The notes beneath the pieces were generated by a model. That model worked only from the letters and a program-made list of their open reading frames with translations. It did not search any database and was not told where the DNA came from. The position numbers and the translations under genes were made by a program. A DNA stretch of 32,086 nt from a virus: IMG/VR virus record IMGVR_UViG_3300032323_001996, positions 1 to 32,086 of that record; one strand, given 5' to 3'. Positions within the stretch are counted from its first letter, which is position 1; each line of letters starts with the position of its first letter. Positions 1,280-30,235 of the stretch are shown piece by piece.

Positions 1280-1293
1280 ATTATTATTCTTTG

Positions 1294-1365
1294 TAGTTCC
1301 TCTAGGACTCGAACCTAAACTAACAGAATCAAAATCTGTGGTGCTGACCATTACACTAAGGAACA
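1294..1365 (-). tRNA. tRNA-Gln (anticodon TTG)
   Basis: A full cloverleaf can be drawn on the minus strand. The acceptor arm GTTCCT pairs with AGGAAC, with a T-T mismatch at the outermost pair. The D-stem is GTGT/GCAC-like with the TAATGGTCAG loop region. The anticodon stem ACAGA/TCTGT is perfect, with loop TTTTGAT and anticodon TTG. The T-arm is TTAGG-TTCGAGT-CCTAG, and the discriminator base is A. No CCA is encoded. It would read CAA, the main Gln codon in this AT-rich genome. It is the only tRNA I found. Confidence 0.93.
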
Positions 1366-2012: not shown

Positions 2013-2561
2013 TTATTTAAATGGATTGTCTAATGTGTTTTCTAAATACTTTCTTATCTTCTTAACTGATATAAATGTTGTTGATTTACTTATACCTATC
2101 TTCTTACTTACTTCATCAAGTGTGTCCGATGACATCCAATACAATTCAAATATCTTTGCTTGAGGCCACATTCTTGTTACTTTTAATTTTTGTAATTCAT
2201 TCATCACTTCTTCATGTGTCTCTTGTAATTTTAAATCCCATTCTTCATTATAAGGTATATCTTCTTCTTCATCTGGCATTTCTTCTATTAAGATAGTCTT
2301 TTTTAGTTTCTTTACCTTATTCATATACCTACTATGTAAAAACTTATTACAATAAAATAGATTATAACTATCTCCCCAGAATATCTTCGGATTGCATTTT
2401 AAGTGTAGGTATTCAAATAACTCACTACAAAGGTCTTCAGCTTCTTCTTGGTTTTTTGTAACCTTCTTTGCTTCATTAACTAACCAGCCATTATGTTTAG
2501 TATAAAGATTAGTTAGTCTTTCATTGCATTCTATTTGTTGTATACTACCTGAGTCTATCAT
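2013..2561 (-). CDS. Sigma-70/ECF-like RNA polymerase sigma factor
   Basis: A 182-aa protein with the two-domain layout of small sigma factors. A region 2-like helix pair lies around residues 22-55 (KHNGWLVNEAKKVTKNQEEA, EDLCSELFEYLHL). A region 4-like helix-turn-helix lies around residues 135-172 (AKIFELYWMSSDTLDEVSKK then IGISKSTTFISVKKIRKYL). An acidic linker (EEMPDEEEDIPYNEE) separates them. By inference it redirects host RNA polymerase to phage late genes; a repeated TTGTTATTATA motif before virion genes is the candidate target. Region 2 is divergent, so it could instead be a plain HTH regulator. Confidence 0.7.
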   Translation of the reverse strand: MIDSGSIQQIECNERLTNLYTKHNGWLVNEAKKVTKNQEEAEDLCSELFEYLHLKCNPKIFWGDSYNLFYCNKFLHSRYMNKVKKLKKTILIEEMPDEEEDIPYNEEWDLKLQETHEEVMNELQKLKVTRMWPQAKIFELYWMSSDTLDEVSKKIGISKSTTFISVKKIRKYLENTLDNPFK

Positions 2562-3967: not shown

Positions 3968-3994
3968 ATTTTGTCATTTTTATTTATGTTATTA

Positions 3995-4026
3995 GTAATA
4001 TACGAAAAATTACTGATATTACCAAA
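3995..4026 (-). promoter_or_regulatory. Promoter of the GIY-YIG gene and early operon
   Basis: The minus strand has TTTGG at 4026-4022, 17 nt, then CGTATATTAC at 4004-3995. This matches the Bacteroidetes layout TTTG, about 20 nt, TAnnTTTG. The same architecture occurs at 5367, 5421, 30204 and 31563. Confidence 0.8.
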
Positions 4027-4057: not shown

Positions 4058-4091
4058 AAAAAAGACCAGGGAATGACAAAAAACCCTGGTC
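4058..4091 (-). terminator. Intrinsic terminator (end of the structured RNA and rep operon)
   Basis: On the minus strand a perfect 8-bp stem, GACCAGGG/CCCTGGTC (4091-4084 with 4071-4064), has a 12-nt loop and is followed by six T residues (4063-4058). Confidence 0.92.
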
Positions 4092-4177
4092 TGTAATATG
4101 TTGAACAGGAACTTTATAATGTAATGCTGAATAGCGATAAAGTATTTTTTAATCCTGTCTTTTATAATAACATATTA
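4058..4177 (-). ncRNA. Candidate structured small RNA (about 120 nt)
   Basis: There is no reading frame here. On the minus strand three perfect nested stems can be drawn: 9 bp (4177-4169 with 4102-4094), 6 bp ACAGGA/TCCTGT (4158-4153 with 4110-4105) and 6 bp CTTTAT/ATAAAG (4142-4137 with 4117-4112). A small GCT/AGC cap sits inside. The strands are offset by bulges of 10 nt on one side and 1-2 nt on the other. A full-consensus Bacteroidetes promoter lies just upstream (4183-4214) and a strong terminator ends it at 4058. It could also act as the 3' end of the rep operon mRNA. The function is unknown. Confidence 0.72.
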
Positions 4178-4182
4178 TATTT

Positions 4183-4214
4183 CAAATATAGTTAAATTAT
4201 TTTACATTAACAAA
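4183..4214 (-). promoter_or_regulatory. Promoter of the candidate small RNA
   Basis: The minus strand reads TTTG (4214-4211), 20 nt, then TATATTTG (4190-4183). This is an exact match to the Bacteroidetes -33 TTTG / -7 TAnnTTTG consensus. The -33 box overlaps the last codons of the 93-aa gene. The predicted start falls at the 5' end of the outer RNA stem near 4177. Confidence 0.75.
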
Positions 4215-5366: not shown

Positions 5367-5398
5367 GTAATATACGATTAATATTTCACTTTACCAAA
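5367..5398 (-). promoter_or_regulatory. Promoter of the replication operon
   Basis: The minus strand has TTTGG (5398-5394), 17 nt, CGTATATTAC (5376-5367). It is the same element as at 3995-4026. It is divergent from the plus-strand promoter at 5421-5451, with 22 bp between the two -33 boxes. Confidence 0.8.
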
Positions 5399-5420
5399 TA
5401 TAAGTATTAGATTTTTCTTT

Positions 5421-5451
5421 TTTGGAAAAACCAATATTTATTCATATATTG
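5421..5451 (+). promoter_or_regulatory. Promoter of the glycan cassette
   Basis: The plus strand has TTTGG (5421-5425), 17 nt, CATATATTG (5443-5451). The spacing is the same as in the minus-strand promoters. It overlaps the upstream in-frame ATG at 5422, which is therefore not the start of the glycosyltransferase. Confidence 0.75.
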
Positions 5452-5472
5452 TATTATAAGAAAATAGTTAAA

Positions 5473-6147
5473 ATGAAAAATAAATTCGCAGTACATTATC
5501 AAACATGGAAAAACGAAAAGGCAACCCAATTTACAATAGAAAAATTTAGAGAATATTTTCCAAACGAACAATTGAGATTAATTTCAGATAATGGTTCTGA
5601 TTATTCTCACTTTATTCCAAAGTATAATATTGATTTTGAATTTTCAAATATCAGTACAGGTAGTAGATTAAAAAACATTGATGCATGTTATGTGTGGTTG
5701 GAGAGAGTTTTTAATACATGCATTTTATATGATACTGAATGGATTGTTATATTTGAAGATGATGTCTTAACACAAAATAATAATATTACCTTTCCAAAAG
5801 AAGATAGTGGTGGTATGATATGTTGGCCATGGGAAAATAATCTAACACAATTACTAAAAAGCAGAAATAATAAAAATCAAATGTTTGGATATGGTATGTG
5901 TGGTGGTTCTATTTTCAGAAGAGAATCGTTTATTAATGCATATTCTAGAATTCACGAATTTGATTTAAAATATATTGGAAGTTTGGATAATAGAGTAACG
6001 GGATATTGTGATACCTTAATAGGTTGTTTCCTACAATATTTTGGATATAGTTACCAAATTTGGGAGAGTACCGATGATATGACTTATCCAGATAGAATAC
6101 CATCAGAAACGGCCTGTTTCATTCACGGATATAAAGAATTATATTAA
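5473..6147 (+). CDS. Glycosyltransferase (GT-A fold)
   Basis: A 224-aa protein starting at MKNKFAVHYQTWKNEK. The ATG at 5473 lies about 20 nt after the promoter; the in-frame ATG at 5422 lies within it. An acidic metal-binding motif EDDV (in WIVIFEDDVL) is at about residues 94-97, the likely DxD-type nucleotide-sugar site. GYGMCGGSIFRRESF follows as the acceptor region, and GYCDTLIGCFLQYFG comes near the end. There is no signal peptide or membrane helix. It overlaps the mutase gene by 1 nt. It may transfer galactofuranose made with its neighbour's product onto host surface glycan; donor and acceptor are inferred. Confidence 0.82.
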   Translation: MKNKFAVHYQTWKNEKATQFTIEKFREYFPNEQLRLISDNGSDYSHFIPKYNIDFEFSNISTGSRLKNIDACYVWLERVFNTCILYDTEWIVIFEDDVLTQNNNITFPKEDSGGMICWPWENNLTQLLKSRNNKNQMFGYGMCGGSIFRRESFINAYSRIHEFDLKYIGSLDNRVTGYCDTLIGCFLQYFGYSYQIWESTDDMTYPDRIPSETACFIHGYKELY

Positions 6148-7232
6148 TGTACGATTATCTTATTGTAGGTGCTGGTTTCTTTGGTTCTATATGTGCGTAT
6201 GAACTTAATAGAAAAGGGTTTAAGGTGTGTGTAATAGAAAATAGAAATCACATTGCAGGAAATTGTTATACATCAAATAGAGATGGTATTAATGTACACG
6301 ACTACGGCCCACATATATTTCATACATCAAATGAAGAAGTGTGGAAATGGATAAATCAATTTGTTGAATTTAATCATTTTAGATTATCACCTGTTGCAAA
6401 TTATAAAGGAGAATTGTATTCACTACCATTTAATATGTGGACATTTTCTCAAATGTGGCAAGTTACTACACCCGATGAAGCAAAGGCACTAATTCAACAA
6501 CAAAGTGATGAAATTGGTGAACCTACCAACTTAGAGGAACAAGCTATTAAATTTGTAGGTAAAGATGTTTATAACAAATTGATAAAAGGATATACTGAAA
6601 AACAATGGAGAAAACCTTGTAATGAATTACCAAAAGAAATTATTAAAAGATTGCCAGTTAGATTTACTTATGATAACAATTATTTTAATGACAAATATCA
6701 AGGTATCCCAATTGGTGGGTATACTCAAATATTTGAAAAACTATTAGAGGGAATTGATGTTAAATTAAATACGGATTATTTTAATGATGAATTACCGGAA
6801 CATAATAAAGTAATATACACAGGCCCAATTGATAAATTTTATAATTATAAATTTGGTGAATTAGAATATAAAACAACCAGATTTGAACATAACCAATTAG
6901 ATACTCCAAATTATCAAGGTTGTGCTATAATGAACTATACGGATTTAGAAATTCCATATACAAGAATAATAGAACACAAACATTTTGAATTTGCAAATAC
7001 AAATACAACTTGGATTACACATGAATACCCCGTTGAATATAATGCCAAAACAACGGAACCTTACTATCCAGTAAATGATTTGAAAAATAATGAAAAGTAT
7101 AATTTATACAAAAGCTTAGCAGATTTAGAAAAAGATGTTATATTTGGTGGAAGACTTGCGGAATACAAATATTATGATATGCATCAAGTAATAGAATCTG
7201 CACTGAAAAGAATAAGTTTGATATGTCCATAA
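6147..7232 (+). CDS. glf: UDP-galactopyranose mutase
   Basis: A full-length 361-aa flavoenzyme that converts UDP-galactopyranose to UDP-galactofuranose. The FAD-binding GAGFFG is at residues 8-13, followed by the acidic residue in VIENR. HDYGPHIFHT is at 51-60, GYTEKQW at 148-154, and VRFTYDNNYF with the first conserved active-site Arg at 172. YTRIIEHKHF places the second active-site Arg at about 273. GGRLAEYKYYDMHQ is at 334-347. All family landmarks are present, so it should be active. It is co-transcribed with the upstream glycosyltransferase by a 1-nt overlap and followed by a hairpin terminator. The host must supply UDP-Gal and reducing power. Confidence 0.97.
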   Translation: MYDYLIVGAGFFGSICAYELNRKGFKVCVIENRNHIAGNCYTSNRDGINVHDYGPHIFHTSNEEVWKWINQFVEFNHFRLSPVANYKGELYSLPFNMWTFSQMWQVTTPDEAKALIQQQSDEIGEPTNLEEQAIKFVGKDVYNKLIKGYTEKQWRKPCNELPKEIIKRLPVRFTYDNNYFNDKYQGIPIGGYTQIFEKLLEGIDVKLNTDYFNDELPEHNKVIYTGPIDKFYNYKFGELEYKTTRFEHNQLDTPNYQGCAIMNYTDLEIPYTRIIEHKHFEFANTNTTWITHEYPVEYNAKTTEPYYPVNDLKNNEKYNLYKSLADLEKDVIFGGRLAEYKYYDMHQVIESALKRISLICP

Positions 7233-30203: not shown

Positions 30204-30235
30204 CCAATATACGAAAAATAATTAACTTTTACAAA
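30204..30235 (-). promoter_or_regulatory. Promoter of the HNH gene at 29822-30199
   Basis: The minus strand has TTTGT (30235-30231), 17 nt, CGTATATTGG (30213-30204), then TAGT and the ATG. It is almost identical from TTTTTCGTATATT through the start codon to the promoter at 31563-31594. The -33 box lies within 10 nt of the frameshift product stop. Confidence 0.8.

Follow-up and report, generated by a model that had tools for sequence, protein, structure and literature searches.

On the minus strand of a virus sequence from IMG/VR (record IMGVR_UViG_3300032323_001996, positions 1 to 32,086; this whole stretch of 32,086 nucleotides is called the window here), a short interval between two phage operons combines a promoter-like sequence, nested stems and a terminator. 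This raises the question if an independent small RNA is encoded at this site, as the original prediction proposed, and on which partner such an RNA would act.

Promoter, fold and terminator in the window

Direct reading of the minus strand confirmed both the TTTG-N20-TATATTTG element (4214-4183) and the 8-bp terminator with its six T residues (4091-4058); the two signals are conserved at the sequence level (Table 1). The TTTG-type promoter consensus is that of Bacteroidetes housekeeping promoters, and we take the element found here to be of this type. In the window, TTTG-N19-21-TATATT is enriched (nine found vs 2.2 expected; 0/100 shuffles); TTTG-N19-21-TANNTTTG alone is not above chance (two found vs 1.5 expected). 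Further TTTG-N20-TATATT promoters form a divergent pair at the replication operon (5369-5450), and another one precedes a NUMOD4/HNH gene (30206-30235). The operon behind the RNA encodes a phage sigma-70-like factor (2013-2561, minus strand), which is kept across the phage group, and a tRNA-Gln (anticodon TTG; 1293-1365, minus strand) lies within this sigma/terminase operon. The genes for UDP-galactopyranose mutase and an unassigned neighbour (5422-7232) are on the plus strand, opposite to the other phage genes.

The minimum free energy structure of the window RNA (-30.1 kcal/mol, z -5.31) contains all three nested stems of 9, 6 and 6 bp that had been described, and none of 200 dinucleotide-shuffled controls was as stable. 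The outermost stem, P1, is the least supported of the three: it varies little in close relatives and is absent from others.

Table 1. Features of the predicted RNA and of the adjacent endonuclease gene (window coordinates)
Feature	Position	Strand	Evidence and remarks
Promoter TTTG-N20-TATATTTG	4183..4214	-	Direct reading (TTTG 4214-4211, N20, TATATTTG 4190-4183); promoter also 5' of the RNA in close relatives
Putative small RNA, about 120 nt	4058..4177	-	5' end predicted from the promoter, 3' end from the terminator; family conserved in viral contigs
P1, 5' strand	4169..4177	-	Pairs with 4102-4094 (TAATATGTT/AACATATTA, 9 bp); close relatives only
P1, 3' strand	4094..4102	-	Pairs with 4177-4169
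P2, 5' strand	4153..4159	-	Pairs with 4110-4104; two-sided changes at all 7 pairs across the family; ACAGGA/TCCTGT (4158-4153/4110-4105), 6 bp, 7 counting one G-U
Conserved 5' bulge UUAANNAAU (window version UUAAAAAAU)	4144..4152	-	Invariant alignment columns
P3, 5' strand	4137..4143	-	Pairs with 4117-4111; two-sided changes at 5/7 pairs; contains CTTTAT/ATAAAG, 7 bp counting A-U
Small cap GCU-AUUC-AGC	4126..4135	-	Variable in the family; 61% of cells paired
3' strands of P3 (4117-4111) and P2 (4110-4104)	4104..4117	-	Alignment covariation
Hairpin 2: putative guide hairpin and intrinsic terminator stem-loop	4064..4091	-	Fold, relatives; stem GACCAGGG/CCCTGGTC (4091-4084/4071-4064), 8 bp; 12-nt loop 4083-4072
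Putative guide sequence UUUUGUCAUU in the hairpin 2 loop	4072..4081	-	Antisense to 3978-3969; mostly unpaired
Terminator U run, six T	4058..4063	-	Direct reading
Endonuclease gene promoter TTTG-N20-TATATTAC	3995..4026	-	Between RNA and gene
Predicted target AAUGACAAAA, 5' UTR of the endonuclease mRNA	3969..3978	-	Complementarity search; one base before the start codon
Predicted target gene, zinc-ribbon and GIY-YIG endonuclease, 171 aa	3452..3967	-	phrog homing endonuclease, E 1.7e-10

A conserved RNA structure in related phages

Relatives were drawn from IMG/VR by searches with the replication protein and the phage sigma factor. The RNA was found at 46 discovery loci plus further ones in Bacteroidetes-type phages, with exactly one convincing copy per whole viral record carrying it. 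Its core, of nearly constant length (59-64 nt), consists of P2 (7 bp), the 5'-side bulge UUAANNAAU (9 nt), P3 (RCU...AGU, 7 bp) and a variable top; P1 and the cap are not kept in all family members. Within the bulge, UUAA and AAU are invariant in the core alignment of 25 sequences. The 5'-side bulges (9-10 nt) had attracted attention for their regularity, which holds for the family in part: conservation is limited to the inner, 9-nt bulge (4152-4144), and the other one is not conserved.

In the model alignment of 46 matches, 96.9% of the P2/P3 cells are paired despite freely varying helices. Two-sided changes occur in 12 of the 14 core pairs and amount to 191 cells, compared to 54 in shuffles, and covariation reaches 0.83 vs 0.23 in shuffles, with every slid version at background. 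The first alignment, which was not fitted to the model, gave a similar result for pairing and covariation. The structure is therefore real at the RNA level; compensatory changes, which the original prediction regarded as decisive, are present in P2 and P3. No conserved reading frame was found in the RNA, as had been stated, since the stops of the homologues are at differing places and the stems covary. A small peptide encoded in the RNA was considered as well and rejected, the frames being broken in relatives.

A search against Rfam 15 gave a tRNA as the sole match in the window at the gathering score and nothing credible at a relaxed threshold, and seven divergent loci matched no Rfam family. 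The RNA would be a new conserved family, absent from Rfam 15. Cultured phages showed no DNA match, the related Nonlabens phages P12024S/L had no convincing copy, and none was found in 395 genomes of one phylum, centred on a MAG genome and searched without a positive control. The near-complete contigs L010, L018, L089 and L109 lack the core, and a looser structural scan was empty. Core-less phages of the same group have different intergenic hairpins, whose GCCAU-type loop precedes a terminator (L087:3984-4422, L089:4635-4976, L109:3761-4098, L119:1083-1415, L009:1844-2053 and L010:2913-3112); the loop of L087 is a 9-nt complement of the start of a replication-like gene (ATGGCACTA).

The RNA occurs in two genomic settings. 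In class A, which includes the window, it shares the strand of the sigma-factor operon and lies upstream of it, usually about 190-240 nt before the first operon gene. In class B (L002, L005, L007, L008, L012, L080 and others) it is found beside the replication gene, on the strand opposite to its neighbours, and thus represents an independent unit. Taken together, the covariation of P2 and P3, the single copy per phage and the class B position strongly support the predicted phage RNA that would be transcribed from its own promoter and end at its own terminator.

The terminator loop and the start of endonuclease genes

The hairpin following the core, hairpin 2, forms an intrinsic terminator in nearly all cases. 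The stem is wholly different between phages, and the loop mostly holds UGYYAU across the family. In the window, the loop is a perfect 10-nt complement of the start region of the GIY-YIG gene. This is the longest match in a comparison of 82 gene starts, the others reaching 8 nt at most; by duplex energy the target ranks third of 53. Predicted unpaired values in the putative guide are 0.57-0.59 for two loop bases and 1.0 for the rest, and the target region is A-rich and predicted to be unstructured.

In class A, the loop is antisense to the start of the first downstream endonuclease gene (GIY-YIG or HNH), and loop and target classes switch together (GUCAU/AUGAC, GCUAU/AUAGC, GCCAU/AUGGC). GUCAU loops go with AAUGACA targets and GCUAU loops with AAUAGCAA (L085, L076, L004). 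Longer matches are found in L103 (loop GCCAUCGGUU, target AACCGAUGGCA, 11 nt; extension pair GCCAUCGGUU/AACCGAUGGC), L123 (loop GCCAUCUU, target AAGAUGGCA; extension pair GCCAUCUU/AAGAUGGC) and L113 (loop GCCAUGUUU, target AAACAUGGCA; extension pair GCCAUGUUU/AAACAUGGC). The target motif is retained even where it does not coincide with the start codon (window, L206, L085, L076 and L126); in the window, L206, L085 and L126 it is located in the UTR. The predicted target proteins (120-175 aa) are HNH_3/NUMOD4, GIY-YIG or zinc-ribbon GIY-YIG proteins similar to homing endonucleases of phages; a GIY-YIG or HNH domain is present in the genes, and as a sign of mobility we found mosaicism only. A type I toxin-antitoxin system was rejected, as the target is an endonuclease of this size and not a small hydrophobic toxin.

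Loops fit their own endonuclease starts better than swapped ones: 7.6 vs 5.9 nt in the discovery set (28 distinct loops; 0/100,000 permutations, p < 1e-5). In a second set of 12 class A loci, fetched separately by sigma-factor alignment and with the nearest endonuclease gene preset as target, the values were 8.1 vs 6.0 nt (0/50,000 permutations). Shuffling of the targets' own sequences (combined p 6e-14) and ranking within each phage (p 1.2e-8) agree, although both figures are optimistic, since the phages are related and the p-values therefore overstate independence. Among 22 class A gene families scanned, own-vs-swapped specificity was seen in the GIY-YIG (0/4000 permutations) and HNH families (pE 0.0003, pL 0.036) only, and endonuclease starts outdo other genes starting with AUGGC (p = 0.001). 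The GUCAU loops as a group have no better duplex energy with the endonuclease starts than with other AUG(A/G)C starts (p 0.34). The complements are short, 6-11 nt, and only 4-6 nt in L072, L125, L132, L110 and L097, phages in which the loop has a better site than the endonuclease.

Two further candidate interactions were rejected. UGUUA in the 5' region of the RNA (window 4172-4163) is conserved family-wide; as a second seed against UAACA in the target UTR (10 nt in the window) it gave an own-vs-swapped p of 0.15. The replication gene as a second target looked significant in raw ranks, but AUGGC starts match equally well (own-vs-swapped p 0.54).

One may also ask if the complementarity is used at the level of DNA. 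Homing endonucleases, among them I-TevI, bind operators close to the gene that encodes them (PMC2988022), and loop and start region could represent two inverted copies of an endonuclease binding site serving autoregulation. We consider this very unlikely: the complement is strictly inverted and always within the single-stranded loop, it differs between close GIY-YIG homologues (L103, L123 and the window), and G-U pairs lengthen some of the duplexes (L145, L271).

In class B, the near-invariant loops resemble GUGCCAU, and many of the endonuclease genes have AUGGC. Own and swapped pairs of loops and endonuclease starts did not differ (p 0.9 by length, 0.28 by energy), and none of 19 gene families showed clear own-vs-swapped specificity. 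An accessible seed that co-varies with a translation start is hence a property of class A and not of class B, and the RNA family overall may have another or broader target. The near-invariant loop of these phages, as well as the unrelated GCCAU-loop hairpins of core-less phages, would fit a general primary partner, protein or RNA of host or phage origin, that recognises the UGCCAU loop or the UUAANNAAU bulge, with the endonuclease fit as a secondary adaptation in one lineage. Such a partner alone leaves the endonuclease-specific co-variation unexplained, and we regard this proposal as rather doubtful.

Core, hairpin 2 and gene do not always change together. The cores of the window and L103 are 100% identical and their hairpins 2 only 52%; the window and L003 share a 100% identical hairpin 2, and their genes are of different types and compare at the level of unrelated sequences. 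The unit is therefore modular. A conserved bulge and an adjacent terminator upstream of a gene are also the typical layout of a riboswitch or attenuator, in which the bulged hairpin would sense something and control the terminator ahead of the endonuclease gene. This is extremely unlikely here, as an identical scaffold can be combined with wholly different terminator stems (window/L103), scaffold and terminator showed no conserved alternative pairing, a promoter specific to the endonuclease gene lies downstream of the terminator, and no gene follows the RNA in the opposite-strand phages.

Proposed function and relation to known systems

Since the loop changes in step with the endonuclease start, the RNA probably switches translation of the endonuclease off. 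The best explanation, to which we assign a probability of about 70% on the basis of the sequence comparisons, is a two-module phage antisense RNA that represses the adjacent homing-type endonuclease. Module 1 would be the constant scaffold hairpin (P2, the bulge UUAANNAAU and P3), which probably has a role in RNA stability or in protein binding; module 2 would be the intrinsic-terminator hairpin with its loop as the guide. The guide is predicted to pair over about 6-11 nt with the 5' UTR or start codon of the endonuclease gene heading the next operon (GIY-YIG in the window, HNH or other GIY-YIG genes in relatives), and this pairing would block translation initiation, probably in trans. Replacement of the endonuclease gene would be accompanied by replacement or alteration of the guide hairpin, and the scaffold would stay. 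The roles originally suggested (regulator of the host or of late genes, decoy, primer or packaging element) found no support; the data instead favour control of the neighbouring endonuclease gene by antisense pairing.

The RNA and its predicted target share a strand, with the RNA located upstream at a distance of usually about 190-240 nt, so that an effect in cis on read-through transcripts is conceivable. The hairpins would then act only on transcripts comprising both the RNA and the endonuclease gene, the loop pairing with the start codon on that transcript, as in T4-type early/late control of homing endonucleases. The promoter between RNA and gene would yield a leaderless, translatable mRNA, as for T4 I-TevI and segB and Aeh1 mobE (PMC2988022). 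This arrangement seems unlikely in view of the RNA's own promoter and strong terminator, of the class B RNAs, which face away from all genes, and of L100 and L135, where the loop still matches the original target despite a further HNH-type gene between this target and the RNA.

In T4-type homing endonuclease genes (I-TevI, segB, mobE), RNA hairpins hide the ribosome-binding site (PMC2988022). The predicted control is similar in that translation of a phage endonuclease (free-standing or intron) would depend on RNA structure at its start (PMC2988022). The T4-type hairpin is part of the endonuclease mRNA, whereas here the antisense loop belongs to a separate transcription unit, equipped with promoter, terminator and a conserved scaffold; in the window, the start region is unpaired and the hairpins lie 5' of the gene's own promoter. 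Another phage antisense RNA adjoining a homing endonuclease gene, and by its description comparable, is CfrI of cyanophage S-PM2, which lies between psbA and the endonuclease gene and was described as linked to psbA (PMC12197685). Unlike CfrI, for which another role was proposed, the RNA described here is short and structured and fits the endonuclease start itself. Like the RNA as predicted here, P22 sar, lambda OOP and P1 c4 are small phage RNAs that silence a neighbouring gene by base pairing. They do so with long complementarity from overlapping or adjacent regions, whereas loop pairing over 6-11 nt resembles that of trans-encoded bacterial sRNAs.

No description of the window RNA was found in the open-licence literature. 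In the known cases, homing-type endonucleases are controlled by hairpins within their own mRNA; if our proposal is correct, this would be, to our knowledge, the first separate small RNA devoted to such an enzyme. A more tentative idea, possible at best, is a re-targetable silencing platform in which a constant, inherited scaffold is combined with guides acquired with each invading endonuclease gene, which it would tame in trans; elsewhere, the same scaffold might carry a general guide for AUGGC starts and act on many mRNAs. The natural scaffold and guide swaps are ready-made test pairs and would illustrate the way in which selfish endonucleases may become domesticated by phages. Bacteroidetes deviate from the textbook in their RNA chaperones and translation signals, and the RNA offers a probe into RNA regulation in this group.
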